Shown piece by piece: positions 34,863-58,787 of a stretch of DNA of 59,900 bases (within the stretch, counting starts at the first letter, position 1; each line of letters begins with the position of its first letter). Location: positions 1 to 59,900 of the forward strand of contig JANYAV010000011.1 of NCBI GenBank assembly GCA_025361145.1. Direction: 5' to 3'. Made by a program: the position numbers and the translations under genes. This DNA is from Dehalococcoidia bacterium (GTDB lineage Bacteria > Chloroflexota > Dehalococcoidia > Dehalococcoidales > UBA3254). The notes under the pieces were generated by a model. The model did no database searches and was not told the DNA's origin. It saw only the letters and a list, made by a program, of their open reading frames with translations.

Positions 34863-35010
34863 ATTAAATTGAAAACTGGAAACTCTAGTTTGTAATTTGG
34901 GAGGTCGTAATTCGGCTTTAACTTTTGAATTTTTACTTGCACTTTTGGCTTTTAACCTTTGATTTTTGACTTATAACATTTGAGATTTTTAATTTGAGAT
35001 TTTATAAATT
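34863..35010. repeat. AT-rich phrase-like spacer, nuoC-nuoD
   Basis: Runs of variants on TTTGAATTTT, TTTTGACTT and TTTGAGATTT fill the gap. The same style fills the gaps at 40697-40836, 42322-42523 and 44003-44160. There is no reading frame and no Shine-Dalgarno before nuoD. Confidence 0.55.
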
Positions 35011-37749: not shown

Positions 37750-37764
37750 TTTTATAAGGAGAAA

Positions 37765-38253: not shown

Positions 38254-38254
38254 G

Positions 38255-38563: not shown

Positions 38564-38591
38564 TTATGAATCTATTTAGGAACTATCAAAT

Positions 38592-38786
38592 ATGTGGTCT
38601 GAGATTAAGACAGCCCCTAATTTAGCTCTTGCTGAGATGTGGAAGGAGTACTTCGAGGGTGAAGGTATTCCCACCCAGATCTTGCCTGTAACCGGCGAAG
38701 CCCCCGGCCGTGAACTGGTGGCTTACCGTATTTTGGTACCTGCCGATAAGAAACACTTGATTGAGGAGATTCTGAGAACGCTGTGA
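38592..38786 (+). CDS. Small DUF2007-like protein inside the nuo cluster
   Basis: A 64-residue soluble protein. WSEIKTAPNLALAEMWKEYF, then EGIPTQILP resembles DUF2007 (putative signal-transducing proteins), in which an N-terminal helix follows a short strand and the segment ends in ILVPADKKHLIEEIL. Its stop overlaps the nuoL GTG by three bases, so it is translated together with nuoL. It is not a known subunit of complex I. A role as an assembly or regulatory factor is an inference from position. Confidence 0.7.
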   Translation: MWSEIKTAPNLALAEMWKEYFEGEGIPTQILPVTGEAPGRELVAYRILVPADKKHLIEEILRTL

Positions 38787-40696
38787 TACCCTATCAATTA
38801 ATCTGGTTGATCTTCTTCCTGCCGCTTATCTCGTTTGCGGTGATCGCGCTTGTCGTCCGTCCGCTGGTTAAACCCGGCAACCGGATAAGCGGTTATTTGG
38901 CTATTGCCGCGATAGGCGGTTCGTTGGCACTTTCCATCTGGACGCTCTTCTCAGTTATGCAGCAGGCCAGCCATGAAATCGCTGTTCCGGCCATCACCTG
39001 GCTTAGCATCGGCAGCTTATCAGTCCAGATTGGCATCTTAATGGATTCCCTTACTGCGGTCATGCTGGTCGTGGTCACTCTGGTCAGCCTCATGGTTCAG
39101 ATTTACTCACAGGGTTATATGCGCGGTGACCCCGGTTATCATCGCTATTTCGCCTGGATGTCTCTCTTCACTATGTCCATGCTGGGACTGGTGCTTGCTA
39201 ATAATCTCTTGATGATGTTCGTCTTTTGGGAGATGGTCGGTCTCAGTTCTTATCTGCTGATCGGCTTTTGGTTCCATAAACCCGCCGCCGCCAACGCCGC
39301 TAAAAAGGCCTTTATCGTGACTCGTTTGGGTGACTTCGGTTTTCTAGCCGCTTTACTGCTTTTATTCGCCAATACCGGCACTTTCGATATTATTGCTTTA
39401 AGAGGATTGGCAATTTCTGGCGTTTTGGGTGGAGCGGTCTTGACCTGGGCAGCTATCGGTATTTTTGCTGGGGCGGCCGGTAAATCCGCTCAATTCCCTC
39501 TGCATGTCTGGTTACCAGACGCGATGGAAGGCCCCACCCCCGTCAGCGCCCTGATCCATGCTGCTACCATGGTGGCCGCTGGCGTCTTTCTGGTAGCCCG
39601 CACCCTTCCCCTCTTCGAGCATTCTCTGGTTGCGATGAACACCGTAGCCATCATCGGCGGTTTTACCGCCATCTTCGCCGCCACTATGGGCCTGGTCGCT
39701 TTTGATATTAAACGAGTCCTCGCTTATTCTACAGTCAGCCAATTAGGTTATATGATGCTCGGGCTTGCCACTGGCGGTGTAGCTGTCGGTATCTTCCATC
39801 TTTTCAATCATGCCTTCTTTAAAGCTCTCCTTTTTCTGGGAGCCGGATCTGTCAATCATGCCACTGGCACCTTCGATATGCGTGAAATGGGCGGCTTGCG
39901 CAAAGTCATGCCCTGGACTTACGGCCTCTTTATCGTCGGTTCACTCAGTCTGGCTGGCATCTGGCCTCTGGCTGGATTCTGGAGCAAGGATGAAGTACTG
40001 GCTTCTGCTCTGGATAAGCAGCCTATTCTCTTTGTCCTGGCTTTGATTACTGTCTTTATGACCGCTTTCTATATGTTCCGGGCAGTCTTTATGACCTTTA
40101 CTGGAGCTTCCCGAGCTAAGACACATCACGAACATGCTGAAGGCCATAGCATTCGCCATGAGTCACCGGCTGTAATGCTGGTTCCGATGATCATCCTGGG
40201 TGTTCTGGCAGTAGTTTCCGGCTTCTGGAACGTCACTGGTGGATTTAATGCCTTCATGGGCGAGGCTGGAGAAACTCACAGCTTTATTGCCGGCTTATTC
40301 GGTGTTTTCGCTCATCCCCTCCCTTGGATCGCCTTGCTGGTTGCTTGTTCCGGGGTTGCTCTTGCGGCGATCATGTACAATACCCGTTTGCTTTCCCCTG
40401 AAAAAGTAGGTAAGTTGTTCAAACCGCTTTATACCCTCTTCTTGAATAAATACTGGCTGGATCAGTTATATGAGAAGCTCTTTGTTAATAACTTCTTGCT
40501 GAATAAATTATTCGCCGGGTTCCAGTGGTTTGATACAGGAGTAGTGGATGGAGCCGCTAACGGTGCTGGTGATGCGACCAACGCCGCAGGCAAAGCTCTT
40601 CGGCGTGCCCAAACTGGCCAGTTGCAGGTCTATGCATTAACCTTAGGCCTGGGCCTGATCGCCATTATCGTTTGTGTATTAATTTTCGGCCATTAA
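38783..40696 (+). CDS. nuoL: Complex I subunit L
   Basis: A 637-residue antiporter-like subunit with about 16 helices. FVFWEMVGLSSYLLIGFW has the conserved Glu and GKSAQFPLHVWLPDAMEGPTPVSALIHAATMVAAG the Lys and His of the proton channel. The C-terminal long lateral helix region ends in hydrophobic LGLIAIIVCVLIF. The start is GTG. Confidence 0.96.
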   Translation: MIPYQLIWLIFFLPLISFAVIALVVRPLVKPGNRISGYLAIAAIGGSLALSIWTLFSVMQQASHEIAVPAITWLSIGSLSVQIGILMDSLTAVMLVVVTLVSLMVQIYSQGYMRGDPGYHRYFAWMSLFTMSMLGLVLANNLLMMFVFWEMVGLSSYLLIGFWFHKPAAANAAKKAFIVTRLGDFGFLAALLLLFANTGTFDIIALRGLAISGVLGGAVLTWAAIGIFAGAAGKSAQFPLHVWLPDAMEGPTPVSALIHAATMVAAGVFLVARTLPLFEHSLVAMNTVAIIGGFTAIFAATMGLVAFDIKRVLAYSTVSQLGYMMLGLATGGVAVGIFHLFNHAFFKALLFLGAGSVNHATGTFDMREMGGLRKVMPWTYGLFIVGSLSLAGIWPLAGFWSKDEVLASALDKQPILFVLALITVFMTAFYMFRAVFMTFTGASRAKTHHEHAEGHSIRHESPAVMLVPMIILGVLAVVSGFWNVTGGFNAFMGEAGETHSFIAGLFGVFAHPLPWIALLVACSGVALAAIMYNTRLLSPEKVGKLFKPLYTLFLNKYWLDQLYEKLFVNNFLLNKLFAGFQWFDTGVVDGAANGAGDATNAAGKALRRAQTGQLQVYALTLGLGLIAIIVCVLIFGH

Positions 40697-40836
40697 CATG
40701 TTTGAAATTTGGAATTTGAATATTGAGATTTGTTTGGTTATTGTTTCTTGGTTATTGGTTATTTGATCAGGTTTGGGATTTAGAATTTAGATATTAGAAT
40801 TTTTTGAATTTCGGATTTATAAGGTAGGCATATAAC
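40697..40836. repeat. AT-rich phrase-like spacer, nuoL-nuoM
   Basis: Consists of variants on TTTGAAATTTGGAATTTGAA and TTATTGTTTCTTGGTTATTGG. The nuoM ribosome binding site AAGGTAGG lies at its end. There is no gene. Confidence 0.55.
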
Positions 40837-42321
40837 TTGGGTTTACTGAGCTTAATAATTTTCTTGCCCGTTCTCGGGGTTATCCTCATCGCCTTGATAC
40901 CCCGTTTGGCTGAAAAAACCATCAAATGGCTGGCGGCCGTTTTCACCTTTATTCCACTAGCCTTGGCCTTTTATCTTTTTTTCGTCTTTGATCGCTCCTC
41001 CGGATCCATTGGGGTTATGCAGTTCCAGGAAAACCTGAGCTGGATCCCTGCCATCAACTCCTTCTACCATGTGGGAGTGGACGGCATCAGCCTGCCGCTA
41101 GTGCTCTTAATGGCCATCCTGGGTTTCCTTGTCGTTCTCATCTCCTGGAAAGTTCATCTTAGAGTCAAAGAGTACTTTATTTGGCTGCTCCTGCTGGAGA
41201 CCAGCATCCTGGGAGTCTTCGCTTCTCTAGACTTATTGCTTTTCTTCCTGTTCTGGGAAATTGAGATTGTTCCTATGTATTTCCTGATCTCGATTTGGGG
41301 TACCGGGCGTCGCTCCTATTCAGCCATGAAATACGTGATTTTTACTTTGGTAGGCAGCGCCTTCATGTTGGCGGGTATTCTGGCCCTTTATTTCACCACC
41401 GGTAGCCTTAATATGCTGGAAATCACTCAAAAGATCGGCGCCGCGGCAGCTGTCATTCCCTTAACCGCTATCTTTTTCCTGCTGATCATCGGCTTTGCGA
41501 TCAAACTGCCTGTCTTCCCCCTTCACACCTGGCTGCCGGATGCACATACCGATGCCCCTACGGGTGTCAGTGTTGTGCTGGCTGGTGCTCTGCTGAAAAT
41601 GGGCGGCTACGGCATAATCCGCGTTTGCGTTAGTATTTTCCCAGACGTCGCCCGCACCTGGGCTCCCTTATTTATTGTTCTTGCGGTTATTGGCATTATC
41701 TACGGCGCAGCTATAACTTTACGGCAGACCGACCTTAAACGCCTGATCGCTTATAGCAGCGTCAGCCATATGGGTTATGTCCTGCTGGGTATCTTCGCCC
41801 TATCTCAAGTCAGCCTCGTCGGCGCCAGCCTGCAAATGTTCAGCCACGGCATTGTTACCGGCCTTCTCTTTGCCATGGCCGGACTGGTAATGCATAACGC
41901 AGGGGAACGCGACCTGCGTAAACTGGGCGGACTGGCTAAACAGACTCCCTTAATTGCTGTAGTCTTTTCACTGGCCGGACTGGCTTCTTTAGGCTTGCCT
42001 TTAACCAGCGGCTTCGCTGCGGAATTCCTGGTCTTTGTGGGCGCCTTCTCTTCTAAAGTGGTGGCTGGTATCCAGGTTTATACCCTGATTTCTGCCATAG
42101 GTGTCGTCCTGGCGGCTGGTTATATACTCTGGATGATCCAGCGGGTTTTCTTCGGCCCAGCCCTGGAAAAATTCAATGCTGTCAAAGACGCCGATAAACT
42201 TGAAATGGTCTATATGGTCGCCTTCGTCGCCTTAATCTTATTGGTCGGCATCTTCCCGTCGATCCTGACTAATATTTATAATATGGGTATCGAACCCATT
42301 GCAAAATTTCTTATACCTTAG
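40837..42321 (+). CDS. nuoM: Complex I subunit M
   Basis: A 494-residue antiporter-like subunit with 14 helices. FFLFWEIEIVPMYFLI and the KLPVFPLHTWLPDAHTDAPT segment hold the channel Glu and Lys; LIAYSSVSHMGYVLLG is also conserved. The TTG start follows AAGGTAGG. Confidence 0.96.
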   Translation: MGLLSLIIFLPVLGVILIALIPRLAEKTIKWLAAVFTFIPLALAFYLFFVFDRSSGSIGVMQFQENLSWIPAINSFYHVGVDGISLPLVLLMAILGFLVVLISWKVHLRVKEYFIWLLLLETSILGVFASLDLLLFFLFWEIEIVPMYFLISIWGTGRRSYSAMKYVIFTLVGSAFMLAGILALYFTTGSLNMLEITQKIGAAAAVIPLTAIFFLLIIGFAIKLPVFPLHTWLPDAHTDAPTGVSVVLAGALLKMGGYGIIRVCVSIFPDVARTWAPLFIVLAVIGIIYGAAITLRQTDLKRLIAYSSVSHMGYVLLGIFALSQVSLVGASLQMFSHGIVTGLLFAMAGLVMHNAGERDLRKLGGLAKQTPLIAVVFSLAGLASLGLPLTSGFAAEFLVFVGAFSSKVVAGIQVYTLISAIGVVLAAGYILWMIQRVFFGPALEKFNAVKDADKLEMVYMVAFVALILLVGIFPSILTNIYNMGIEPIAKFLIP

Positions 42322-42523
42322 GTGTTTGAGATTTGTAGTTTAATTATTGTTTGTAATTTGAGATTTGGAGTTTCTTAGTGTGGTGTCATTCTGGAGGCCC
42401 GATTTGCTCGGGCCGAAGAATCTGGTGGCGGGGTAGTTAGTTTTTAATTTGCAATTTGAATATTGAAATTTATTTAGTATTTCGAATTTTGGATTTTGGA
42501 TTTAAGGTATATTAGGAGTCAAT
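42322..42523. repeat. Spacer nuoM-nuoN with AT-rich phrases and repeat copy B
   Basis: AT-rich TTTGAGATTTGGAG-like runs flank a GC-rich segment at 42384-42437. That segment (TGTCATTCTGGAGGCCCG, an inverted CCCGATTTGCTCGGG, then GAAGAATCTGG) is a shorter relative of the repeats at 383-500 and 44531-44602. The end supplies AGGAGT for nuoN. Confidence 0.5.
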
Positions 42524-44002
42524 TTGAATTTCTCTTTGTTAATGCCAGAACTTACCCTCGCCATCACCGCCGTCTTGGTGATTCTGCTCGACCTCTTTAT
42601 CAAGCAGAAATCTTGGCTGGCCGCCGTCAGTATCCTTGGTTTGGGAATCTCATCCGCCTTCGCTTTAGGCCTCTGGAACGGGACTCCCCAATCTGCCTTC
42701 AACAATATGCTGGCAGTAGACAATTACGCTATTTTCTTCAAGCTGCTTTTCGCTGGCATCGCCATACTTGTCATTCTGGCTTCAACCGACTATGTTTCTA
42801 AATTCCAGCGTTTCCAGGGTGAGTACTATGCCCTCATTCTCCTCTCCGCCCTGGGTATGATGCTCATGGCCTCCACCACGGAATTGATTACCTTGTTTAT
42901 TTCGCTGGAATTGGTTAATCTCTCGCTTTACGCTCTGGTGGGTTTCCTCAAAGATGGTAAGTCCGCTGAAGCTTCCCTGAAATATCTGCTTTTAAGCGCC
43001 GTAGCCTCCGCCGTCCTGCTCTTCGGCATGGCGCTGGTCTTCGGTTTCACCGGTCAGACCCAGCTTGGTGAAATCGCCAGATCGATTCAATCCACCCTGG
43101 CCGCCGGTCAGGTCAATTCTGCCCCCGCTGTTCTGGTAAGCCCTGGTCTGTTTGTGGGCATCGTCCTGATGATTGCCGGTTTTGGTTTTAAGATCGCCAT
43201 GGTCCCCTTCCAGATGTGGGTACCAGACGTTTATGAAGGCGCCCCCACTCCCGTCACCGCTTATCTTTCGGTAGGCAGTAAAGCCGCCGGATTCGCCATT
43301 ATTTTACGCGTCTTTTATTCGGCTTTTATCCAACCTTCTAATCTCGGTTTGGACTGGGGTATGATCTTTGCCGTCTTGAGCGCTGTTACCATGACTGTTG
43401 GTAATATTATCGCCATCCAGCAGGATAATATTAAAAGAATGTTGGGATACTCCAGCATCGCTCAAGCCGGCTATTTGATGGTCGGCTTAGCCACCGTAGG
43501 TCTGGCTCCCGCTCTCACCTCTGCGGGGCAAGCGCCGCTGCTCTTCTTTTTAGTCAGCTACTCCCTCACCAACCTGGCTGCTTTTATCGCCATCATCGCT
43601 ATCACTAGCGAGACCGGCAGCGATTTGATCGACGATTTTAAGGGTATGGGCAAACGCTCGCCCTGGCTGGCTGCCGCCTTGACTCTGGCCATGATCTCTT
43701 TGATCGGCATGCCCCCGGCTGCCGGTTTTATAGCTAAATTCTATATCTTTAGCGCAGCGGTACAGCATGATCTGCTTTGGCTGGTGATTATCGCCGTTAT
43801 TAACAGCGTTATCTCAGCCTTCTATTACTTGAGGGTAGTCAAAGTCATGTGGATGAACGAACCAGCTTCCGCGGAAAAAGTCCCCGCCTCTGCAGCGTTG
43901 ATAGTCGCTCTGATCTTCTGCAGCTTGGGTGTTTTGCTCTTCGGCCTGTTACCCGGCCTAGCTATGAATCCCGCCGGTTTGGCAAATATGTTGGGTTTTT
44001 AG
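42524..44002 (+). CDS. nuoN: Complex I subunit N
   Basis: A 492-residue antiporter-like subunit, the last of the set. FISLELVNLSLYALVGF carries the Glu, and FKIAMVPFQMWVPDVYEGAPTPVTAYL the Lys. ISLIGMPPAAGFIAKFYIF is the C-terminal signature. The start is TTG. nuoE, nuoF and nuoG are not found in the cluster. Confidence 0.96.
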   Translation: MNFSLLMPELTLAITAVLVILLDLFIKQKSWLAAVSILGLGISSAFALGLWNGTPQSAFNNMLAVDNYAIFFKLLFAGIAILVILASTDYVSKFQRFQGEYYALILLSALGMMLMASTTELITLFISLELVNLSLYALVGFLKDGKSAEASLKYLLLSAVASAVLLFGMALVFGFTGQTQLGEIARSIQSTLAAGQVNSAPAVLVSPGLFVGIVLMIAGFGFKIAMVPFQMWVPDVYEGAPTPVTAYLSVGSKAAGFAIILRVFYSAFIQPSNLGLDWGMIFAVLSAVTMTVGNIIAIQQDNIKRMLGYSSIAQAGYLMVGLATVGLAPALTSAGQAPLLFFLVSYSLTNLAAFIAIIAITSETGSDLIDDFKGMGKRSPWLAAALTLAMISLIGMPPAAGFIAKFYIFSAAVQHDLLWLVIIAVINSVISAFYYLRVVKVMWMNEPASAEKVPASAALIVALIFCSLGVLLFGLLPGLAMNPAGLANMLGF

Positions 44003-45379: not shown

Positions 45380-48300
45380 ATGAAAGCGCTCAAGTATTTA
45401 ATCACCCTAATCATGGTTCTGGCGATGTTAATGCCAACCTTTACCTGGGGCACTACCCAGGTATTGGCTGCCGACCCACCGGCTGTTGGTGATACCAGCC
45501 AACAGATGCCTCCGATGGGCACTACGACTAATGCCCAGAGACATGAAGCTGCACAACGGGCGGCAGCGGCTCGCGTGCAAGTGGCCGCGGCGGCTGCTCA
45601 GGCTGGCCCTGATTCTATACAGCCAGCATTGGTACCCGGTCCGGGTACTACCCCAGACTACTTTGGCACCACTCCTAACTGGGCTAATAGTCCTATTGCT
45701 CAACAAAATCTACCTGCGGTCTCTTTCAGCGCTCCTCCGGCTGGGGGAACTGCACCGACCGCGACAGCTATTGTATCCAATAATCTGGCTGGTATCACTG
45801 TGACTGATCCTGGTATCGGCTATACTTCGCCACCCAGCATAACTATTACCGGGGGCGGAGGCGCTGGAGCTACGGCTTCAGCCTCCATTACTGGAGTTCT
45901 TTCGGGTATTTCTTTGACTAACGGGGGCAGCGGTTATACCTCACCTCCCCAGGTCTTTATCACCGGGGGCGGCGGCACCGGGGCTACCGCCGTGACCACC
46001 ATTGGTGGTCAAAGCGTTGTGACCGGTATTACTATTAATAATCCCGGCGCGGGCTATACCTCCGCTCCGACTATCACTTTTAGCGGTGGTGGAACTCCTT
46101 CAGCTCAGGCTACGGCTATCGCCGTTATTTCAGGAACTGTCAGCGGCATCACCATCGTGAGCAGAGGAACTGGCTACACCAGCCCTCCCACGATTGTTTT
46201 TTCAGGTGGTGGAGCAACTACCCAGGCCCAGGCCACCGCTACGATTGTTAATACTGTTAATACCGTTAATGTTTCAGCGGGCGGTTCAGGTTATACCTCC
46301 GCGCCAACTGTCGGTTTTACCGGCGGCGGTGGAACTAATGCCGCTGCCACGGCTAATATTTCTAATGTCGTTTCTAACATCACTGTATCAGCCGGCGGCA
46401 CAGGGTATACCCTGCCCCCGAGCGTTAATCTTTCCGGAGGTGGCGCCACTACTCAAGCTACCGCTACTTCCACTATTGCTAATGTGGTTACCGGGGCACG
46501 CGTCACTGCTGGCGGCAGTGGTTATACTACTGCCCCTGTAGTGAACATAGCCGCTCCCGCAGGTGGAGGGACTCAGGCCACCGCTACTGCCACAATTGGT
46601 AGAGTAGTAGCCAACATCACGGTCACTGCCGGAGGAACCGGTTATACCACTGCTCCTAGCGTGGTATTGACTGGAGGCGGAGGGACAGGAGCTACCGCTG
46701 TAGCTACTGTTTCAGCCGGCAGGGTTTCTGCTATCACGGTTACTGCCGGTGGCAGTGGATATACGACTGCTCCTACCATTTCTTTCAATGGCGGCGGCGG
46801 TACCGGTGCAGCTGCAACAGCGGCTATTTCCGCTACCAGCCAGGTCACCTCAATTATCATTACTAATCGCGGCAGCGGCTATACCGGCATTCCGGCTATT
46901 ACTTTCAATAATACCGGTACCGGTGGAACTGGAGCCGCGGCTACTGCTACTGTGACCGGAGTAGTCGTTTCCGTCACGGTCAACCCAGCCTCAAGAGGTT
47001 CAGGTTATACTTCCGCACCGACCGTTTCCTTCACAGGTGGTGGAGGTGGCAGCGGGGCTGCCGCTACAACCGCCATTACAGGGTCTGTGGTCAGCGTTAC
47101 CCTGACTAATCGCGGTACTGGCTATACTTCTGCCCCAACCGTCGGTTTCACCGGCGGAGCGGGTACTGGAGCAGCGGCCACCGCTACTCTGACCGGTGCT
47201 CTGAATACCATAACTATTACTAATCCTGGCACAGGCTATACTTCTCTCCCCACCGTCACCTTCAGCGGAGGTGGCGCTACAGCTCAAGCTACAGGCACAG
47301 CTAACCTATCCATACTCATTACAGGTGCGATTATTACCAGTGGCGGAGTTGGTTATACCGGAACACCCATCGTGACTTTTAGCCCAGCTCCCGCTGGCGG
47401 CACTACCGCTCTGGGAACTGCCGTAGTTTCCGGGTCTAATAGTCTAACCGGAATCTCCATTGTTTCCGGCGGCAGCGGCTATACTGCCGCGCCCATCGTT
47501 TCATTTACCGGCGGTAATGGCTCTGGAGCTGCGGCTACTGCCAGTATTTCTGGAGGCGTAGCCTCTATTGCTGTAACCACTCCAGGTAGTGGGTATACAA
47601 CTGCGCCTACCGTGTTCTTCACCGGCGGTGGTGGTACAGGGGCGTCAGCAACGGCCACCATCTCAACCGCCAGCGCTGTTTCTGCGATCACTCTGGGATC
47701 TGGCGGCAGCGGTTATACCTCTGTTCCGGGAGTTTCCTTTAGCGGTGGTGGGCCTGGTACGGGCGCTGCTGCTACCGCAGTAATTTCTGGCGCTATTGCT
47801 AGCATCAACGTAACTACCCCGGGTACCGGTTATACTTCTGTTCCCTCCATCTTTATCACTGGAGGCGGCGGCTCTGGCGCCACCGCGACTGCCACCCTTT
47901 CTCCAGCCGGCGGGGTTATCTCCATTAATTTAACTAATAAAGGCAGCGGCTATACCTCAATTCCTTCTGTCGTCATTAGCGGCGGAGGAGGAGGCGGTGC
48001 AACTGCAACTGCTGCCATCGATGGCATTGTTACAGGTCTTTCTCTTTCTAATCCCGGTAGTGCTTACAGCTTACCGCCTGTGGTCAGTTTCACTGGAGGC
48101 GGGACTCCTTCCGCTCCGGCCTTGGCAATCAGCACGATTGATTCTATTGTCACAGGGGTCACTGCCCTGGTGGGTGGTGCGGGCTATACCTCAGCGCCCA
48201 GCGTTGCCATCGGAGGCCCGGGCCTGGGAGCTACTGCGACTGCTACGATAAGCGGCCCTGTTGCCAGTGTCAGTATTGGAAACGGGGGCACCGGCTATAC

Positions 48301-51300
48301 CGCGGCACCATTGGTCACGGTTACTCCGCCTGTTGGTAATATTCCTGTTACCGCAGCGACAGCTACAGCATCGATCAGTGGTGTTACCGCCATCAATTTG
48401 GGTGTCGGTGGTACGTTATATACCGTAACCCCAATCGTTACTATCACCAACGCTGTGGGCGATGTCACAGGCAGCGGCGCCACAGCCACAGCTATTTTAA
48501 GCGGTGGATCTGTTAGCGGGTTTACGATCACTAATAAAGGCTCCGGTTATACTGCCAATCCGACCGTCTCAATTACTCCTAGAGTGGGCGACACTACCGG
48601 ATCAGGGGCTACGGCTACCGCCGTTGCCTCAATTGGAGTTGTCACCGGCCTCACTTTCACACCTGGCACCGGTTACAACGCTAATCCTTCAATAACGATC
48701 GCTGCTCCGACGGCCGGGACTACAGCCACAGCTACCGCTGCTATTAATGGCACGGTAACTGCTGTTACCATTACTAACGCCGGCAGCGGTGGTTACATTA
48801 CCGTTCCTACTATTACTATCGGCGCTCCCACCGGAGCCAGCCCGGTTCAGGCTACGGTGACTGCCGTCACTGCCAGCGTCGTGACCGGTTTAACCCTCCT
48901 CTCAGTCGGCAGCGGTTATACCTCGGCCCCAACCGTAGTTTTTACTAATGCAGTCGGTGATACCACCGGCAATGGAGCTGCGGCTACCGCCAGCTTTGCC
49001 TCGGTGGTCTCAGCCATCACGGTGACCGCAGCAGGTACTGGGTATACCAGCGCGCCTGCGGTTGCTATTATCGGAGGTGGTGGACTTGGCGCCAGCGCAA
49101 CCGTTAATATCGGCGGTGGCATTGCCAGTATCGCAGTTAATAATGGCGGTACCGGCTACAACGCTTTATCGCCTATCGTTATCAATATTACTGGCGGCGG
49201 AGGTTCCGGCGCGGTGGCGTCTGCCGTTATTTCAGCCTCAGTTATCGGTTTTAATCTCACTAACGGCGGCGGCGGTTATACCTCAACTCCTGTGGTCACA
49301 GTGGCTGCCTCTCCGGCTGGAGCGCCTGCTACCGCCACAGCTGTCATGGCTGGCGGTACGGTAACTGGATTCACCGTTACCAGTCCCGGTACAGGCTATT
49401 CCTCTGCACCGACCGTCTCATTGACTGGAGGCGGGGGCACCGGAGCTACTGCCACAGCGGCTATATCAGCCTCAGTAACCGGCTTAGTGCTCACTAATTT
49501 TGGATTTGGCTATTCCGCAGCTCCGGGAGTTGTGTTTACTAATGCGGTGGGTGATACTACAGGCTCCGGCGCTTCCGCCATTGCGGCAATTTCAGCGCAG
49601 GTCACCTCAGTCACTCTCACTAATCCAGGTACTGGGTACACCTCCGTGCCTTCTATTACTATCGGCCCTTCCAACACTGCTGGCGGTATTCAGGCAGTGG
49701 CGGCTATTAACGGCATCAACTCTATAGTCAGCAGCATCACTCTGAGCAATCAGGGTACAGGATATACCTCGGCGCCGACTATCATCATAAGTGCTCCCAA
49801 TGTGGCGGGTGGCAGACAAGCTGTTGCTACGGCTACTCTGGCTACCACAGGATCTATATCCGGATTCAATATTACCTACCCCGGCAGCGGTTATATTACC
49901 GCGCCTACTGTTACTTTAACCACTTTACCCGGTAGAGCAGGTAGTGGCGCTACCGCTACCGCGACCCTTGGTTCTGGCTCGACCGCCGGACAAGTCGTGG
50001 CGGTTAATGTCGTCACCAGCGGCACCGGCTATGGCACACTGATCAAGGACACCAGCACCGCTGTCACCGGTATCCTTATTACCAACGGCGGCTCAGGTTT
50101 CACTTCCGCTCCTACCGTCACCATATCGGGCGGCGGCGGCACAGGTGCTACGGCCAGGGCCTGGATTGCCCTGGGACGGGTTAACGGCATTACCATTACC
50201 AACGGTGGCAGCAACTACACCACTGTCCCTTCCGTTACCATTAGCGGAGGCGGAGGGACCGGGGCCACCGGCACGGCCATTATCGCTTATAACAAAACTA
50301 TCGGTGTACGGAAATTTGTAGATTCGCTGCCCGGCCTGAACGCCGCTGGCACTAACAATCTTGGCCAATATATTCCGGTGGCTATTCCGGATACTACTAC
50401 TTATCCCAATACTGACTATTACGAAATTGCCCTGGTACGTTACACCGAGCAGATGAACAGCGACCTGCCTCCCACCGAACTCCAGGGTTATGTTCAGACC
50501 AATACGACAGACGCTACGGTTAAAAAGCCCAACTATTTGGGACCGATCATTGTAGCCCAGGAAAACAGGGCTGTCAGGATCAAATTCACCAACTTACTGC
50601 CTACAGGGGCTGATGGCAATCTCTTTATTCCTGTAGATACTACGGTGATGGGTTCAGGCATGTCTGTAGATGGTGTCAACAGCTATACTCAAAATCGCGC
50701 AACCTTGCATCTTCATGGTGGAGCCACTCCCTGGATCAGTGATGGTACGCCTGACCAGTGGACCACTCCAGCCACTGAAATAACTCCTTATCCTAAAGGA
50801 GTTGACGTACAAAATGTTCCGGATATGTGGTACGATCCTGTCACCCATGTCACCGTTCCGGCTGGAACTGCCGGCGCTACCAACAATCCCGGTGCTGGTT
50901 CAATGACTTTCTACTATACCAACCAGCAAAGCGCCAGACTGATGTTTTATCATGATCATGCCTATGGCATCACTCGCTTAAATGTTTACACCGGCCAGGC
51001 GGCGGGCTATATTGTCCGTGACCCGACCGAACAGAATTTGATCACTACCGGAGTGATCCCAGCGGCTGAAATTCCTCTGGTTATTCAAGACCGCACCTTT
51101 GTACCCGGACCGACCCAATTGGCAGCCGAAGATCCTACCTGGCAGCCGGCTAAATGGGGCGGCACCGGCAATCTGTGGTTCCCCCATGTCTATATGCCTA
51201 ACCAGAACCCGGCTGATCCCTCCGGTACTAACGCTATGGGTAGATGGGACTACGGACCCTGGTTCTGGCCGCCTTATCAAGGGTTAGTGAACGGCCCGAA

Positions 51301-54300
51301 ACCTAATCCTTACTTTGTGGCCGGTACCAGCGAAGGTCCCACTATTCCTGGTGTACCTGATCTTTCGCTTACCCCCGAAGCCTTTATGGACACACCTGTC
51401 GTAAACGGTACGGCTTATCCTTTTCTGACCATAGAGCCCAAAGCATATCGGTTCAGAATCCTGAATGCCAGCAACGACCGTGCTCTTAACCTGTCTCTGT
51501 TCTATGCGGCGTCCAACGGCCAGATGTGGGATGCTACTACCGGCGCTTTGCTTGATCCCAATGCCGGTGAAGTTCCCATGGTTCCCGCAGTTGCCGGAAA
51601 TCCCAGCACTGCCGGCTATTCCCCTGACCAGCTTGACGGACGCGCTGGTGGTGTTCCTGATGCCAGAGCGGCTGGGCCTGATTTAATCCAGATCGGCTCT
51701 GAGGGCGGTGTTTTACCTGCTACCGCGACCATCGCTAACCAACCGATAGGTTATGAATACTTCCGCCGCAGCATAACTGTGTTGAATGTCTCTACTCATT
51801 CTCTCTTCATCGGCCCGGCTGAAAGAGCGGATGTTATTGTTGATTTCTCCCAGGTGCCTCCGGGATCCAAGCTGATACTTTACAACGATGCCCCAACCCC
51901 TGTTCCGGCTTTTGATACCAGAACTGATTACTATACCGGTGACCCGGACCAGACCGATATCGGCGGCGCGCCGACTACTCAACCTGGATATGGTCCTAAC
52001 ACCCGTACTGTTATGCAGTTCCAGGTAGCTGGAACACCGGCAGCGGCTTTTAACAAAGCAGCACTGGATGCTGCTATACCCGCCGCCTTTGCGGCCACTC
52101 AACCTAAACCTATTATCCCGGTTGCGGGTTATGACGCGGCCTACAATGCCAATTTCCCGGCTGATGCTTATGCCAGAATCCAGGATACTTCTCTTAACAT
52201 CTTCAATACCCTGCTTTCTAATGGCGCTCTTTCAGGAGTCCAGGTGACTAATGGAGGTAGCGGCTATACCGCCAATCCGGCGGTGACCATTGCTCCACCC
52301 GCGGTTGGCACTACCGCCACGGCTACTGCCGTAGTGGGCGGTCTTACCAGTCTGGTCTTAACCAGTGGAGGCAGCGGCTATACCGCTCCGGTGACAGTCA
52401 CCATCAGCGCCCCCGGTGGCGCCGGTGTAAGGGCTACTGCCGTCGCAACTGTGGATGGCAGTGTAATTACCGCGATTAATATCACGAATCCTGGTTCTTT
52501 ATACACCACGAATCCCACCGTCACTATTAGCGGCGGACCGGGTACCGGTGCTGCGGCCACGGCTACTGTAATAACTGGTGCCGTGACCAGTTTCACACTG
52601 ACTAATGCGGGCACTGGTTATACCTCAGTTCCTATAGTCACTATCGGTGCTCCTACCGGCACGGGTCCGGTGCAGGCTACAGCTATCGCCCTGGGCGTAA
52701 ATATCACCATGCAGCCTAAAGCTATTCAGGAACTTTTCGAGGTGACATACGGCCGCATGAACGCAACCCTGGGCGTAGAATTGCCTAACACTAATGCGAC
52801 CATTCAAACTACCATTCCATATGGCTATATCGATCCGCCTACGGAATTGATGTTAGATACGCCGGCAGCTGCCGTTTTAGGTTCGGCCGCAGATGGGACA
52901 CAGGTCTGGAAAATTACCCATAATGGCGTGGATACCCATTTCATCCATTTCCATTTGTTTAACGTTCAGGTGCTAAACCGCGTCGGTTGGGATGGCACCG
53001 TAAAACCGCCAGATGCTAATGAATTGGGTTGGAAAGAGACTGTGCGCATGAATCCCCTGGAAGACATCATTGTGGCAATGAGGCCCACTGCGCCTACAGT
53101 TCCTTTTAAAATGGCCAATGCGGTTCGGCCTCTCGATCTGGTAAATCCCTTAAACAGTACCGGACAGTTTTTTGGAGTAGATCCTAACAATAATCCTGTT
53201 ACTGTGACTAATACTCTGGTTAACTTCGGTTTCGAATACGTCTGGCACTGCCATATCCTGGGCCATGAAGAGAATGATATGATGCGCCCGATTATCCTGG
53301 TAGTACCTCCTGATGCCCCTTCAACCTTGACTGCTACACGTACCGGTACTACCGTCAATTTGAGGTGGATAGATAATGCCGCCAACGAATCTGGCTTTGT
53401 CGTCCAGCGTGCGACTGACGCTGCCTTTACCAGCAATGTGGTCACCTTTAACGCTAATTCCAGCTCCCCTGCCGGAGCCTACAGCGTAAATGTTAGCTAC
53501 GCTGATGCCACTGTAAGCGCGGCTACCAGCTATTATTATCGGGTGATGGCTATTAACACCGTCGGCTATGGCAATGGATATCCGCAAATGACGGCTAATT
53601 CAGCCTACACAGCCGCTATTAATGTTGGACCCACCCCTGCAGCTCCTACCAACTTTAGAGCTACGGCAGCCAGCGCCACTCAGGTCAATCTCACCTGGAC
53701 CAATAATGCTGCCGGGGCTGCTATCGTAATCCAGCGAGCTACCAACAGCACCTTTACTGCAGGATTGACAGTAATCAATCTGGCCGCTGGTACTGCTGCC
53801 TATTCGAATACCGGCCTGACGGCTAGTACGGCCTACTATTATCGAATCTATGCTGTCAATGGTGCCAGTGCTTCTGCCATGACCAACGCTACTCCTCCCT
53901 TCCCTGTTACCACTCTAACTGGCTTGCTGGCTCCCGCGGCGCCCTCCAACTTGACCATCACCCGCACCAGTCCTACTCAAATGAGCCTGAGGTGGACTAA
54001 TAATGCCGTTGCTCCTAACGCTGCCACCGGGGTTGTCTTACAGCGCGCCACTAATAATACCTTCACTGCTGGATTGGTAACCTTCAATCTGGCGGCAACC
54101 ACACGACTGTACACTGATACCACCGTCGTTTCCGGTACTTTGTACTACTATCGGGTCTACGCCTTTAACGCCGCTGGCAACTCAGCTTACGCCAATGTTT
54201 TAACCGCTATGCCTTTGATGGTGGTCAATCCGGCTTCGGAGATCTTGCCTATGGCCGCACCCACGGCGCCCACCGCTTTTAGAGCTACTGCAGATAGTGC

Positions 54301-57300
54301 CACGCAAATCACGTTGTTGTGGACGGATACTAACACGGCTGCTACTGAAACTTCCAGCCTTCTCGAGCGCTCAACAGCCTCCAATTTCGGGGCTAACCTG
54401 GTTCAGGTCACTTTATCTCCGCCCGATCCAGCTATCACCCCTCCCGACAACATGTGGTATGTTGATACCAGTGTCTCAGCCGGTACCTCCTATTATTATC
54501 GGGTTACAGCTACTCAAACAGGTGTCGGTGGTGGTTCTGTGACGGTTAATGCCCCTGCCACTGATTTCCCGGTCATTACTCCTGGAGTGGCCTCTGCCCC
54601 TGCTGCACCTACTGCAATGACCGCTACCGCGGCTAGCGCTACCCAGGTCAATCTGGCCTGGGTAGATAATGCGAACAATGAATCCGGTTATGTCGTTGAA
54701 AGAGCCACTTCTGCTGACTTTGCTACCAATTGGACCAATTTTAACTTGATACTGGCTCCGAACACTACTTCATATTCGGATACTACAACAGTTGGGAATA
54801 CCAGCTATTATTATCGTGTTAATGCCTTTAATTCAGTTGGAGTTTTTTCAGCTTTTGCTAATGCTGCTCCAGTAACGACTCCGGCACCGGTAGGCGTTCC
54901 TGCCGCACCCAGCGGATTAACAGCTATTGTCGATCCCAATACACTCATCCCTAATACCGCCATTAGACTAGACTGGACTGATAACTCTAGCAACGAGACC
55001 GGGTTCCACATCTTCCGGTCGACGAACGGAGTTTTCAGCCCGGTGCCAACCTTTACAGTTGCCACGGCCAATACCACCACTTTCAGTGATAATACTGTGG
55101 TTGGCGATACCAACTACTACTATCAGGTAACTGCCTACAACGCCAGTGGCGATTCGCAACCCTCCGGTTCAGTCGTTGGCGTTATCCTGCTGCCTCCTGC
55201 GGCGCCTACCTTGACTCAGGCAATCGCTACCAGCAGTACCACCGTTCACTTACAGTGGACTGATAACTCCGCCACTGAGACAGCTTTTATTGTGCAGCGT
55301 AGCACCGATGCTGGTTTTACCGCGGTGACTACCTTACCCGCTCTGGCGGCCAATACCACTTCTTATGACGATCCCGCTCTCACGGCCAGCACTACTTATT
55401 GGTATCAGGTCATTGCTAACAATGCAGCCGGACAAAATGTTTCAGGCCCGCTGAGCGTTACTACCCAGGCTGCCGGCGTGATTACCACCATTACTATTGA
55501 AACTGCTGTTGATGGAACCGGAGCACTTGTCCCTGCCCAGACCTTGACTGTCGGCAGTGCTTTACAGGTGTACGCCATTTTCCGCGATCAGACCACTCAT
55601 GCTTTTATCGCCAACGTAGCTGCTGACAGCTGGTCTTTAACCATCACCAACGGCAATGTGGCGGCCGGAGACCTCGTAGCTGCCGTGGATAAAAAGAGTG
55701 CGGTGATGACTGGAAATCTGCGTGGTTCCGGAGTCATCACTGCTACCACCGCAGCGGTACCCGCTAATTCAGGGATGATCTCCGTTGTGGCAGGCCCAGC
55801 GACGCAACTCAGAATAGAGACTTCTGCGAACGGCACTGGTGCCGTAGTTTCGGCTCAAAGCTTGAATGTGGGCGGCGCTCCTTTAACCCTGTACGCCATT
55901 ACCCGCGATGCTTTTAACACCTTTGTGGCTAATCCTTCTGTCACCTGGTCGTTAACCGGAACAGTCGGCAACGTAGTGGTAGGGGACTTAAGCTCAACCA
56001 CTGGAGCCAGTGTAGTCTTAACTCCCAATCACGATGGAACTCCGGTGATTCATGCCGATAATGGAGCCGGACTAACAGGTAATTCAGGCATCATTTCCAT
56101 CATTGGCAGCCTGGGTGCGGCTCATCTGGCCATTAGCCAGTCTCCTGCCAGCACACTCGGGGTCAGTGCTGCCTTTACCACACAACCCTGGCTTCTGGTT
56201 ACAGATGCTGGCGGTAATCCTGTCAACGGCACCGTTGTAACAGTTTCACTCGGATCAGGTACCGGTACCTTAAGAGGAACTCTGACCGCTACCAGCGGAG
56301 CTGACGGTCTGGCTAAGTTCACCGATTTGGGGTACAGTAAGACCGATGCTTTCAATCTACATTTCGCGGCCGGGGCTTTGTCTGCCGATACCACGCCCGC
56401 TATTGGTCCTTTAGCGGCTGGTACCACCAGTGTTATCAGCGTAGAAACTGCCGCCAATGGCAGCGGGAGTGTAGTTGCGACGCAGACCCTGACAGTAGGC
56501 CAGTCCATCACTGTCTACTCTATTGCCCGCGATCAGTTTGGTAACTTTATCGCCAATGCGGTTCCGGATAGCTGGTCACTTGTTGGTAGCATAGTAAATA
56601 CCGATTTGACCCCAGCTGTCAACAACAAGAGTGCTACCTTGACCGCTAACAGTGTTGGCAGTGCGGTTATTCATGCTCCGATCAACGGAATAACCAGTGT
56701 TGACTCAGGAACAATTACGGTAGCTGCTGCAGTGGTTTCAGGTGGCGGCGGTGGCAACACAGGTGGTGGCGGGAGTACTCCTACTCCTGCACCCATCATT
56801 ACCCCCGTTTCTCTGTTCGGCGTAACTGCTTTGGGTAATGCGATAGATTCTGCCGGTACATTCAAGACTACTGTAGTGGCTAAAGATGTCGTTGGAACCG
56901 CATCAGTGACGGTCGCCTCAGGTGTAAAGGGATTGACTGCCAGCGGTGTTCCTCTGGTCTCACTCACCGTTACTCCGATGGCTAACCCACCGGCTCCGCC
57001 TCAAGATACTCAGGCGGTTGGCGTATTCTTTGACTTTGGTCCCACGGGCGCTACTTTCAGCGCGCCTGTTACGATCACTTTAACCTATGATCCGGCTAAA
57101 CTGGCAGCCGGCACTGATCCTTCAACTCTGTACATCGCCTGGTATGACACAATAACTCAGAAATGGGTCAATTTACCCGGTGTGGTTGACCTGGTCAAAC
57201 ATACAATTTCAGCCACGGTCAATCACTTTACCCTGTATTCGATTCTATATCCTAAACCTGCAGTTCCGGTAGTGACCCCAACTGTTACCGCGACACCCAC

Positions 57301-57529
57301 AATAACCGCCGTGGTTACTCCTACAGCTACACCTGTGATCACAACCACTGCCCCTGTAACTACGACTCCTGCGCCTATAGTGACATCAACCCCAACGCAG
57401 GTTGTGACCACCACATCCGCGCCTGCTCCCAAACCTTCATCCAACAACACCTGGCTGATCATAGCGGGCGCTATAGTGGTGATAGCAGTAGTTATCGCGG
57501 TGATGGTTTATCGCAGAAAGCGGGCTTGA
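45380..57529 (+). CDS. Giant cell-surface multicopper oxidase with glycine-rich repeats, Fn3 and Ig-like domains
   Basis: A 4049-residue protein in one open frame; the ATG at 45380 follows GGGAGG. Residues 1-34 are a signal peptide (QVLA-A). About 38 repeats of 36-44 residues, built on GGSGYTSAPTV then GGGGTGATATA, fill about 111-1637. A multicopper oxidase covers 1637-2643: HLH at 1777-1779, HDH at 1858-1860, HFIHFH at 2520-2525 and HCHILGHEENDM at 2623-2634, so the T1, T2 and T3 copper ligands are all present (Cys2624, His2629, Met2634 for T1). Four more repeats interrupt it at about 2282-2439. Seven Fn3 domains (2644-3364), about four Ig-like domains (to 3787), a C-terminal beta domain, a Thr/Pro stalk and a TM helix (about 4022-4043) with RRKRA follow. 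The oxidase core recalls CotA and the Geobacter OmpB type. Its substrate could be a metal or an organic molecule. Confidence 0.9.
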   Translation: MKALKYLITLIMVLAMLMPTFTWGTTQVLAADPPAVGDTSQQMPPMGTTTNAQRHEAAQRAAAARVQVAAAAAQAGPDSIQPALVPGPGTTPDYFGTTPNWANSPIAQQNLPAVSFSAPPAGGTAPTATAIVSNNLAGITVTDPGIGYTSPPSITITGGGGAGATASASITGVLSGISLTNGGSGYTSPPQVFITGGGGTGATAVTTIGGQSVVTGITINNPGAGYTSAPTITFSGGGTPSAQATAIAVISGTVSGITIVSRGTGYTSPPTIVFSGGGATTQAQATATIVNTVNTVNVSAGGSGYTSAPTVGFTGGGGTNAAATANISNVVSNITVSAGGTGYTLPPSVNLSGGGATTQATATSTIANVVTGARVTAGGSGYTTAPVVNIAAPAGGGTQATATATIGRVVANITVTAGGTGYTTAPSVVLTGGGGTGATAVATVSAGRVSAITVTAGGSGYTTAPTISFNGGGGTGAAATAAISATSQVTSIIITNRGSGYTGIPAITFNNTGTGGTGAAATATVTGVVVSVTVNPASRGSGYTSAPTVSFTGGGGGSGAAATTAITGSVVSVTLTNRGTGYTSAPTVGFTGGAGTGAAATATLTGALNTITITNPGTGYTSLPTVTFSGGGATAQATGTANLSILITGAIITSGGVGYTGTPIVTFSPAPAGGTTALGTAVVSGSNSLTGISIVSGGSGYTAAPIVSFTGGNGSGAAATASISGGVASIAVTTPGSGYTTAPTVFFTGGGGTGASATATISTASAVSAITLGSGGSGYTSVPGVSFSGGGPGTGAAATAVISGAIASINVTTPGTGYTSVPSIFITGGGGSGATATATLSPAGGVISINLTNKGSGYTSIPSVVISGGGGGGATATAAIDGIVTGLSLSNPGSAYSLPPVVSFTGGGTPSAPALAISTIDSIVTGVTALVGGAGYTSAPSVAIGGPGLGATATATISGPVASVSIGNGGTGYTAAPLVTVTPPVGNIPVTAATATASISGVTAINLGVGGTLYTVTPIVTITNAVGDVTGSGATATAILSGGSVSGFTITNKGSGYTANPTVSITPRVGDTTGSGATATAVASIGVVTGLTFTPGTGYNANPSITIAAPTAGTTATATAAINGTVTAVTITNAGSGGYITVPTITIGAPTGASPVQATVTAVTASVVTGLTLLSVGSGYTSAPTVVFTNAVGDTTGNGAAATASFASVVSAITVTAAGTGYTSAPAVAIIGGGGLGASATVNIGGGIASIAVNNGGTGYNALSPIVINITGGGGSGAVASAVISASVIGFNLTNGGGGYTSTPVVTVAASPAGAPATATAVMAGGTVTGFTVTSPGTGYSSAPTVSLTGGGGTGATATAAISASVTGLVLTNFGFGYSAAPGVVFTNAVGDTTGSGASAIAAISAQVTSVTLTNPGTGYTSVPSITIGPSNTAGGIQAVAAINGINSIVSSITLSNQGTGYTSAPTIIISAPNVAGGRQAVATATLATTGSISGFNITYPGSGYITAPTVTLTTLPGRAGSGATATATLGSGSTAGQVVAVNVVTSGTGYGTLIKDTSTAVTGILITNGGSGFTSAPTVTISGGGGTGATARAWIALGRVNGITITNGGSNYTTVPSVTISGGGGTGATGTAIIAYNKTIGVRKFVDSLPGLNAAGTNNLGQYIPVAIPDTTTYPNTDYYEIALVRYTEQMNSDLPPTELQGYVQTNTTDATVKKPNYLGPIIVAQENRAVRIKFTNLLPTGADGNLFIPVDTTVMGSGMSVDGVNSYTQNRATLHLHGGATPWISDGTPDQWTTPATEITPYPKGVDVQNVPDMWYDPVTHVTVPAGTAGATNNPGAGSMTFYYTNQQSARLMFYHDHAYGITRLNVYTGQAAGYIVRDPTEQNLITTGVIPAAEIPLVIQDRTFVPGPTQLAAEDPTWQPAKWGGTGNLWFPHVYMPNQNPADPSGTNAMGRWDYGPWFWPPYQGLVNGPKPNPYFVAGTSEGPTIPGVPDLSLTPEAFMDTPVVNGTAYPFLTIEPKAYRFRILNASNDRALNLSLFYAASNGQMWDATTGALLDPNAGEVPMVPAVAGNPSTAGYSPDQLDGRAGGVPDARAAGPDLIQIGSEGGVLPATATIANQPIGYEYFRRSITVLNVSTHSLFIGPAERADVIVDFSQVPPGSKLILYNDAPTPVPAFDTRTDYYTGDPDQTDIGGAPTTQPGYGPNTRTVMQFQVAGTPAAAFNKAALDAAIPAAFAATQPKPIIPVAGYDAAYNANFPADAYARIQDTSLNIFNTLLSNGALSGVQVTNGGSGYTANPAVTIAPPAVGTTATATAVVGGLTSLVLTSGGSGYTAPVTVTISAPGGAGVRATAVATVDGSVITAINITNPGSLYTTNPTVTISGGPGTGAAATATVITGAVTSFTLTNAGTGYTSVPIVTIGAPTGTGPVQATAIALGVNITMQPKAIQELFEVTYGRMNATLGVELPNTNATIQTTIPYGYIDPPTELMLDTPAAAVLGSAADGTQVWKITHNGVDTHFIHFHLFNVQVLNRVGWDGTVKPPDANELGWKETVRMNPLEDIIVAMRPTAPTVPFKMANAVRPLDLVNPLNSTGQFFGVDPNNNPVTVTNTLVNFGFEYVWHCHILGHEENDMMRPIILVVPPDAPSTLTATRTGTTVNLRWIDNAANESGFVVQRATDAAFTSNVVTFNANSSSPAGAYSVNVSYADATVSAATSYYYRVMAINTVGYGNGYPQMTANSAYTAAINVGPTPAAPTNFRATAASATQVNLTWTNNAAGAAIVIQRATNSTFTAGLTVINLAAGTAAYSNTGLTASTAYYYRIYAVNGASASAMTNATPPFPVTTLTGLLAPAAPSNLTITRTSPTQMSLRWTNNAVAPNAATGVVLQRATNNTFTAGLVTFNLAATTRLYTDTTVVSGTLYYYRVYAFNAAGNSAYANVLTAMPLMVVNPASEILPMAAPTAPTAFRATADSATQITLLWTDTNTAATETSSLLERSTASNFGANLVQVTLSPPDPAITPPDNMWYVDTSVSAGTSYYYRVTATQTGVGGGSVTVNAPATDFPVITPGVASAPAAPTAMTATAASATQVNLAWVDNANNESGYVVERATSADFATNWTNFNLILAPNTTSYSDTTTVGNTSYYYRVNAFNSVGVFSAFANAAPVTTPAPVGVPAAPSGLTAIVDPNTLIPNTAIRLDWTDNSSNETGFHIFRSTNGVFSPVPTFTVATANTTTFSDNTVVGDTNYYYQVTAYNASGDSQPSGSVVGVILLPPAAPTLTQAIATSSTTVHLQWTDNSATETAFIVQRSTDAGFTAVTTLPALAANTTSYDDPALTASTTYWYQVIANNAAGQNVSGPLSVTTQAAGVITTITIETAVDGTGALVPAQTLTVGSALQVYAIFRDQTTHAFIANVAADSWSLTITNGNVAAGDLVAAVDKKSAVMTGNLRGSGVITATTAAVPANSGMISVVAGPATQLRIETSANGTGAVVSAQSLNVGGAPLTLYAITRDAFNTFVANPSVTWSLTGTVGNVVVGDLSSTTGASVVLTPNHDGTPVIHADNGAGLTGNSGIISIIGSLGAAHLAISQSPASTLGVSAAFTTQPWLLVTDAGGNPVNGTVVTVSLGSGTGTLRGTLTATSGADGLAKFTDLGYSKTDAFNLHFAAGALSADTTPAIGPLAAGTTSVISVETAANGSGSVVATQTLTVGQSITVYSIARDQFGNFIANAVPDSWSLVGSIVNTDLTPAVNNKSATLTANSVGSAVIHAPINGITSVDSGTITVAAAVVSGGGGGNTGGGGSTPTPAPIITPVSLFGVTALGNAIDSAGTFKTTVVAKDVVGTASVTVASGVKGLTASGVPLVSLTVTPMANPPAPPQDTQAVGVFFDFGPTGATFSAPVTITLTYDPAKLAAGTDPSTLYIAWYDTITQKWVNLPGVVDLVKHTISATVNHFTLYSILYPKPAVPVVTPTVTATPTITAVVTPTATPVITTTAPVTTTPAPIVTSTPTQVVTTTSAPAPKPSSNNTWLIIAGAIVVIAVVIAVMVYRRKRA
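45712..50290 (+). repeat. Array of about 38 coding repeats in the giant gene
   Basis: Each unit encodes G-S/T-GYTSxPTV, a short strand, GGGGTGA or a replacement, then ATATAxI and a hydrophobic strand ending T-N. Variant units with NAVGDTTGSGA instead of GGGG occur near units 23, 24, 27 and 32, and units with APTGxxPVQAT near 26. Codons differ between units, so they are old duplications. It is coding sequence, not a CRISPR or satellite. Confidence 0.9.
52224..52695 (+). repeat. Four coding repeats inserted within the multicopper oxidase domain
   Basis: Four units of the same family (starting NGGSGYTANPAV, SGGSGYTAPVTV, NPGSLYTTNPTV, NAGTGYTSVPIV) lie between the second copper motif and the C-terminal cupredoxin. 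The last (IGAPTGTGPVQATA) is most like unit 26 of the main array. Oxidase sequence resumes with MQPKAIQELFE. Confidence 0.85.
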
Positions 57530-57567: not shown

Positions 57568-57601
57568 AAGGAGCCCCTGATCAGATCAGGGGCTCCTTTT
57601 G
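57568..57601 (+). terminator. Rho-independent terminator of the giant gene
   Basis: AAGGAGCCCCTGATC (57568-57582) and GATCAGGGGCTCCTT (57584-57598) form a long perfect stem followed by T residues; the convergent cyclophilin gene ends 47 bases further. Confidence 0.9.
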
Positions 57602-57644: not shown

Positions 57645-58787
57645 TTATTTTTCTTCCACAGTCACTTTTAACAGCTTATCGCCTTGTTTGATTTTATTGA
57701 GAACGTCCATCCCCTGGGTCAGTTGCCCGAACACTGTAAAACCTCCATCAAGCGAAGGCTGATCTGAATAGCAGATAAAGAATTGACTGCCGTTAATGTT
57801 AGGGCCAGCGTTAGCCATGGAGAGTGTCCCGGCGATATGCTTGCGGCTGGATATTTCATCTGGAATCTGATAGCCAGGTCCTCCACTCCCCGTTCCCGTA
57901 GGATCACCGCCCTGGACCACAAAATTCGGCACAACCCTATGAAAAATGGTTTCGTCGTAAAACTTGTCACGGCTCAAAAAGACGAAGCTATTGACAGTCT
58001 GCGGCGCATCCGCGGGGAAAAGTTCAAAAACCATCTCCCCATAAGCCGTAGTCATTGTTGCCCTATATTGTTTATTTTTGTCTATTGTCATAGGAGGAGC
58101 ACTGGAATAGTTGGTTTTGGTGGAGGTAGGAAGAGCAGCTGGATTGGTTGTAGGTGTGGTCGTTATATCGATGAATGTGAAGCTATTAATCGCCGCATCC
58201 AGTATCGGAGCATATTTATCATAGGCACTTTCAATAGAATAGACGCAGATCACATAAAATTCACTTCGCGTATTCGCAATGTACCATTTCATTTCCCACT
58301 GGCCGGCTGAATCTGTTACCAACCATATTGCTTCATACCCGGAGATTTTTTGGCCGAATTGAACCTTAGCAGCGGATTGTTCAGTTAAATTTTTAATGTC
58401 AGCGGATTGTCTGGCCGAAGCTAGAAAATTTTGATAATACACCTCTAAAGTGACGTCCTGAGAATATTTGGAATTATCAATAGTGACCACAATCCCTGAT
58501 TCATTATTACCAAAATCACTGTTCCCTGAAATCATGCCCTGGCTGAAAGCTCGAAATTGATTAATCACCGGGTTTTCAACCTGCCATTCCAGCGGATAAT
58601 CTAGTGAGTAACCAAAATTGCTATCTGAATAATTTTTCATGGCCACGGGGGGTGTCGGAGTAGGAGTTGGGCTATCGGAAGGAGTTAGACTGGGAGTGCT
58701 TGTTTTCCCGTTATTGCAACTGGTCATCAAAAGACTTGCTGCGGTAAAAAGAGCTAAAAGTAACCATATTAATCTCGTTTTATTCAT
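57645..58787 (-). CDS. Exported lipoprotein with a C-terminal cyclophilin-type prolyl isomerase domain
   Basis: A 380-residue lipoprotein. The signal ends at lipobox MTSC; a Ser/Thr/Pro linker follows. Residues about 50-200 (FGYSLDYPLEWQVENP ... INSFTFI) look like a PsbP/DUF1795-type domain. Residues about 235-380 are a bacterial cyclophilin: FHRVVPNFVVQGGDPTGTGS (catalytic Arg and the Gln/Gly wall), GTLSMANAGPNINGSQFFI and LDGGFTVFGQL. It would catalyse cis-trans isomerisation of X-Pro bonds outside the membrane. It converges on the giant surface protein, whose repeats each carry at least one X-Pro. Confidence 0.93.
   Translation of the reverse strand: MNKTRLIWLLLALFTAASLLMTSCNNGKTSTPSLTPSDSPTPTPTPPVAMKNYSDSNFGYSLDYPLEWQVENPVINQFRAFSQGMISGNSDFGNNESGIVVTIDNSKYSQDVTLEVYYQNFLASARQSADIKNLTEQSAAKVQFGQKISGYEAIWLVTDSAGQWEMKWYIANTRSEFYVICVYSIESAYDKYAPILDAAINSFTFIDITTTPTTNPAALPTSTKTNYSSAPPMTIDKNKQYRATMTTAYGEMVFELFPADAPQTVNSFVFLSRDKFYDETIFHRVVPNFVVQGGDPTGTGSGGPGYQIPDEISSRKHIAGTLSMANAGPNINGSQFFICYSDQPSLDGGFTVFGQLTQGMDVLNKIKQGDKLLKVTVEEK

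Follow-up and report, generated by a model that had tools for sequence, protein, structure and literature searches.

A giant MofA/OmpB-type multicopper oxidase with repeat arrays inserted into its core, encoded by a Dehalococcoidia bacterium

The window that we have analyzed is one entire contig (G000:C16, 59.9 kb) from a Dehalococcoidia bacterium, whose genome of 1.70 Mb is 96% complete. On the forward strand lies an open reading frame (ORF) of ~12 kb (45380-57529) that encodes a protein of 4049 residues. In family and architecture this is almost certainly a multicopper oxidase (MCO) of the MofA/OmpB type. Our explanation as a whole, including the role proposed below, is that it is a secreted surface enzyme anchored at the C-terminus, in which arrays of an uncharged repeat lengthen a core resembling CotA laccase at two points, sites A and C; we regard this as probable. 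The original prediction, made from the sequence, described a surface protein with an oxidase inside it. That relationship is reversed, with the MCO forming the conserved core and the repeats being the insert.

The ATG of the ORF is preceded by a clear ribosome-binding sequence, GGGAGGAAGT, and translation gives a single frame with no internal stops, in agreement with the original prediction. There is no sign of an assembly artefact. No frameshift or assembly join was found from the stops, from exact DNA repeats within the ORF (none exceeds 18 bp, the length of the longest), from Tandem Repeats Finder (TRF), which detects no tandem array, or from the GC content at third codon positions (GC3), which is even from start to end. 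Judged by sequence, the protein begins with a Sec-type signal peptide (45380-45472), and ends in a Thr/Pro stalk (57248-57448) and a transmembrane anchor with the basic tail RRKRA (57449-57526); all of these had been anticipated.

Both Pfam and NCBIfam recognize the MCO within the 4049 residues. PF07731 and PF07732 are above the gathering score, and PF00394 lies slightly under it (19.5 compared with 21 bits). Domains 1 and 2 occupy 50300-52213 and domain 3 lies at 52703-53308, as placed by Pfam, by relatives and by profile alignment. The nearest solved relative by sequence is CotA laccase (1gsk), with E = 2e-42 and a profile E of 8e-61. The profile check proposed for this segment gives a multicopper oxidase with Pfam, NCBIfam and the CotA profile alike. 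Foldseek applied to the predicted MCO fold also returns CotA as the best match (E = 7.5e-22, probability 1.00), from a model whose predicted local distance difference test (pLDDT) score is only 47.5.

In an alignment to 1gsk that follows the general CotA ligand numbering, all 12 ligand residues of the type 1, 2 and 3 copper sites are present in order. They fall in four motifs, all on the forward strand: HLH (residues 1777-1779; 50708-50716), HDH (1858-1860; 50951-50959), HFIHFH (2520-2525; 52937-52954) and HCHILGHEENDM (2623-2634; 53246-53281). The complete set of copper motifs originally read from the sequence thus lines up with the CotA ligands. C2624, a ligand of the type 1 copper, is the sole cysteine in the protein. 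The equivalents of CotA D116 and E498, which adjoin the trinuclear site of CotA, are retained as D1788 and E2630. Because these two residues are kept together with all the ligands, metal binding without catalysis, an alternative put forward originally, is disfavored, and the core is likely to be catalytically competent. CotA has the same three-domain core, but is a spore coat protein of 513 residues without repeats or anchor.

A hidden Markov model (HMM) of the ~39-residue Gly/Thr/Ala/Ser repeat scores 41 copies, with 37 in an N-terminal array at site A (45710-50284) and four in a second array at site C, the linker between MCO domains 2 and 3 (residues 2281-2437; 52220-52690). The original count of about 38 holds for the N-terminal array; the array within the MCO had been missed. 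Two order-mates (L037 and L038) encode relatives of 1559 and 1562 residues that are ~56% identical in the core and repeat-free at both sites. In the window protein the leader (45473-45700) ends in PDYFGTTPNWANSPI, a motif common to the relatives, immediately ahead of site A, and in repeat-free proteins this motif abuts RKFVD. The leader of the L037 and L038 proteins, PDYYSLTVPNWAWTPP, continues directly into LRKFVDGLPGL (PNWAWTPP/LRKFVDGLPGL) where the window protein has its 37-copy array. At site C their junction reads FQTLSG..PLQPKAIQ, so that domain 2 passes straight to domain 3, skipping the stretch occupied by the four repeats. Since the flanks in these order-mates join directly at A and C, the arrays are inserts in the oxidase and not the reverse. 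Both relatives have twin-arginine signals, in contrast to the Sec-type signal of the window protein.

Among ~40 relatives from many phyla, repeats within the core are confined to three sites: A, before RKFVD; B, in domain 2 (residues 2043/2064 of the window protein); and C. The window protein uses A and C, and its 37 copies at site A are the highest number seen, compared with 1-17 per site in relatives. Parsimony on the tree gives 6 changes at A, 5-6 at B and 7 at C. The presence of the repeat is thus labile, but its place is fixed. Because the named relatives were located by way of the repeat, it is over-represented among them; a phylum survey with a repeat-free core also yielded the repeat-free L295, L038, L300 and L302, and L037 came from a separate search. 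Counting in relatives was run without filters, so weak copies in L301 and L305 are included, and the absence scored for L303 is not literal, its site A repeats being visibly decayed and unscored by the HMM.

Copies of the repeat diverge most at third codon positions (0.68, compared with 0.46 and 0.51), indicating that the protein sequence of the repeat is under selection. Recent tandem duplication is ruled out by a DNA likeness of ~56% at every lag, together with the TRF result. Dispersal of the repeat across the organism's own genome is also ruled out, as every scored match lies in the giant gene alone.

The consensus of the repeat is VxxITVTNGGSGYTSAPTVTISGGGGTGATATAxI, with about one tyrosine per copy, and the site A array has just 23 charged residues in 1526. 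Neither Pfam nor the PDB contains a match. In a structural model each repeat forms three strands (pLDDT 62), but with no match in the PDB below E = 0.4 we assign no fold; the repeat is probably β-rich. Searches were made with a 75-residue consensus of two repeats; a 38-residue query is too short, and the repeat alignment too little conserved. These find matches in more than 500 viral stretches and in many bacterial and archaeal contigs, so the repeat is not peculiar to this order. Virion families in PHROGs carry it (head closure Hc2, baseplate wedge and virion structural proteins; E down to 6e-82), although the host proteins are unrelated to the MCO. Its phage hosts include a nozzle protein and, judged from how their sequences begin, neck, sheath and baseplate-like proteins. 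The cellular hosts include SusD, SecD, molybdopterin subunits, a di-haem peroxidase, pilin-like proteins and an Fe-S protein. Judged by family, most of the hosts would be either exported or part of the virion. Clusters of two repeats are the commonest, followed by four and six. Our partial coverage of the literature found nothing on the motif, and this promiscuous and apparently uncatalogued repeat is the more novel part of our findings.

Several of these hosts can be given by locus. SecD or SecDF proteins of one family of the order have about four repeats within the P1 region (L042, 8108-10852; L070, 244-2022; L071, 973-2751). Xanthine dehydrogenase-like molybdopterin subunits have repeat pairs at two sites (L043, 9764-12547; L041, 8834-11689; L044, 7885-10464; L049, 775-3321), where the first insert is missing from L049, leaving visible an empty site that is filled in L043. 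L046 (315-1544, reverse strand) encodes a ferredoxin-like protein that has a twin-arginine signal and four repeats lying between the cluster motifs, and di-haem cytochrome c peroxidases (CCP_MauG) with inserted repeats are found in dehalogenase-rich order-mates (L072, 700-2418; L074, 703-2490).

Taking the repeat and the oxidase together, we consider the following to be evenly balanced between right and wrong. The GSGYTSAP repeat, of ~39 residues and often paired, would be an undescribed and promiscuous β module that occurs both in the virion proteins of phages and in bacterial and archaeal extracytoplasmic enzymes, and that is tolerated only at fixed loops. The MofA/OmpB-type oxidases would have acquired, lost or expanded it on repeated occasions, always at one of three sites. 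The window protein would be the largest expansion seen, in which a long neutral stalk carries the surface copper enzyme of an anaerobe.

Comparison with known members places the protein in its family. MofA of Leptothrix discophora is a putative Mn(II) oxidase. The L. discophora contig (L217) encodes a 1645-residue MCO, after which come genes for an FKBP-type isomerase and a cytochrome c protein, matching the published mofABC gene order (PMC5566968). The window core is 39% identical to this MofA over domains 1 and 2, and 57% over domain 3. MofA also carries the same type of repeat at site C, but has 5-6 repeats rather than 41, none at site A, and no Thr/Pro stalk with a C-terminal anchor. OmpB of Geobacter sulfurreducens is reported to be a surface MCO that is homologous to MofA, bears a fibronectin type III (Fn3) domain and is required for the reduction of Fe(III) oxide (PMC5566968). 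The original lead to OmpB was thus well directed, the window protein being a homologue of MofA; its likeness to OmpB is by published description and through MofA, not by sequence. Other MCOs with the same core (≤63% identity) and repeats at A, B or C come from Neobacillus cucumis (L202), Methanoperedens (L240 and L252) and G429 (L296), among others. They have 1-17 repeats per site and reach at most ~2360 residues, compared with 37 and 4049 for the window protein.

Like the MofA/OmpB-type proteins, the window protein exceeds 1000 residues and has Fn3-type domains after the core. The original remark that MCOs normally have 450-650 residues does not apply here; the close relatives that we fetched have ~1030-2360, large size is usual in the family, and 4049 residues is the extreme of a known size trend. 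The Fn3 region occupies 53309-55579 (PF00041, E = 9e-26). Seven Fn3 domains had been predicted, and PF00041 supports three stretches over threshold (E ~1e-24), so that support is partial. About four Ig-like domains had also been predicted and these receive no Pfam support; between the Fn3 region and the stalk are further domains with no Pfam family above threshold (55580-57247). Another giant in the order, a distant MCO-like frame of 3020 residues (L039, 9190-18249, forward strand), lacks these repeats but has a stalk rich in Pro and an anchor at the C-terminus.

The core's closest relative is in G501, from another family of Chloroflexota (68% identity), followed by Neobacillus, with the order-mates further away. 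Vertical inheritance with the MCOs of the order-mates is ruled out by the approximately unbiased (AU) test (p = 1e-42 and 5e-5), implying transfer or old paralogy, and a genome of the same genus (G001) has no match. As G501 has no scored repeats despite being the closest relative, arrays can come and go quickly.

We infer a role in metal handling along the following lines. The arrays would serve as neutral spacers and, together with the Fn3 stalk, keep the copper core at a distance from the cell. The type 1 copper would accept electrons from a reduced extracellular substrate, such as Fe(II), Mn(II), Cu(I) or a phenolic or humic compound, and the trinuclear center would reduce O2, so that an anaerobe might clear traces of oxygen and oxidize metals or organics at oxic-anoxic edges. 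That such O2-linked oxidation is the natural role is a tentative proposal. The substrate of MofA itself, Mn or Fe, is still debated (PMC11412304).

A number of observations weigh against this explanation. The substrate and surface location of the giant protein are predictions, the predicted MCO fold has low confidence, and the model of the repeat is modest and without a PDB match. Neither COX1/haem-copper nor cytochrome bd oxidases were found in the 96% complete genome, in keeping with the original view of it as apparently anaerobic; with no terminal oxidase, the cell has no known route for respiring O2. There is no match in the genome to the copper chaperone SCO1/SenC. Nor are there mofB- or mofC-like genes beside the giant gene, in contrast to the FKBP and cytochrome c genes that follow mofA; it lies instead between complex I genes and a cyclophilin gene that converges on it. 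Gene-cluster content varies, however, among known MofA/OmpB-type members (PMC5566968), so that a cluster with an isomerase, cytochrome c or SCO1 is not an essential feature.

The strongest competitor, which we regard as possible though doubtful, is anaerobic extracellular electron transfer in the manner of OmpB, with the core relaying electrons between the cell's multihaem cytochromes and insoluble Fe(III) or Mn(IV) oxides, and the repeats and Fn3 domains contacting the mineral. This would fit the reported requirement for OmpB in Fe(III) oxide reduction (PMC5566968), and the genome does encode a multihaem cytochrome whose 577-residue open frame contains 17 CxxCH motifs (L318; G000:C24:31181). 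Relatives of the oxidase are also found in anaerobes, including dehalogenase-rich order-mates, Methanoperedens and Desulforhabdus. Yet the O2-reducing trinuclear site is fully retained, for which electron transfer has no need, and no cytochrome gene adjoins the giant gene. Moreover, OmpB is cited as having iron-binding EXXE motifs, of which the window protein has just one in 4049 residues. Defense against copper or oxygen stress in the manner of CueO, by oxidizing Cu(I) outside the membrane or by removing O2 as such, is unlikely; CueO is a recognizable though weaker relative and the genome lacks a terminal oxidase, but the nearest relatives are large MofA-like proteins, and long arrays and an anchor would be unexpected for a small soluble cuprous oxidase. 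An assembly artefact or gene decay is a highly improbable explanation of the frame, its unusual size being the sole point in favor, set against 12 kb without a stop, the short exact repeats, the even GC3, protein-level selection on the repeats, and the same architecture in isolates from other phyla.

The surroundings of the gene are as follows. A complex I (nuo) cluster with several recognized subunits lies just 5′ of it (33418-44002, forward strand). On the reverse strand a gene converging on it (57645-58787) encodes a cyclophilin-type peptidyl-prolyl isomerase with a weakly PsbP-like N-terminal part, MofB being of the FKBP type instead. Between the two genes is a palindromic, terminator-like stem of 14 pairs (57568-57598; one found, 0.1 expected). 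The window also contains a bacterial large signal recognition particle (SRP) RNA (6478-6740, reverse strand; Rfam RF01854, 171.6 bits). In L037, the region 3′ of the repeat-free oxidase (13149-16974) encodes a methyltransferase, DUF4418, an unknown protein, an FtsX-type permease and an ABC ATPase; the matching stretch of L038 contains ORFs that agree in order and are close in size. Reductive dehalogenases have no match in the window genome, and order-mates with single-contig genomes of ~1.5-2.1 Mb have 18-50 matches each, as would suit Dehalococcoidales.

A surface copper oxidase of the MofA/OmpB type is a candidate for a part in microbial Mn and Fe cycling. Its occurrence in small-genome Chloroflexota that lack terminal oxidases and are related to organohalide respirers makes the question of why an anaerobe would retain it testable. 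An unnamed repeat common to phages and cells, which members of a single enzyme family from many phyla have received at the same three sites, constitutes a natural experiment in domain insertion.
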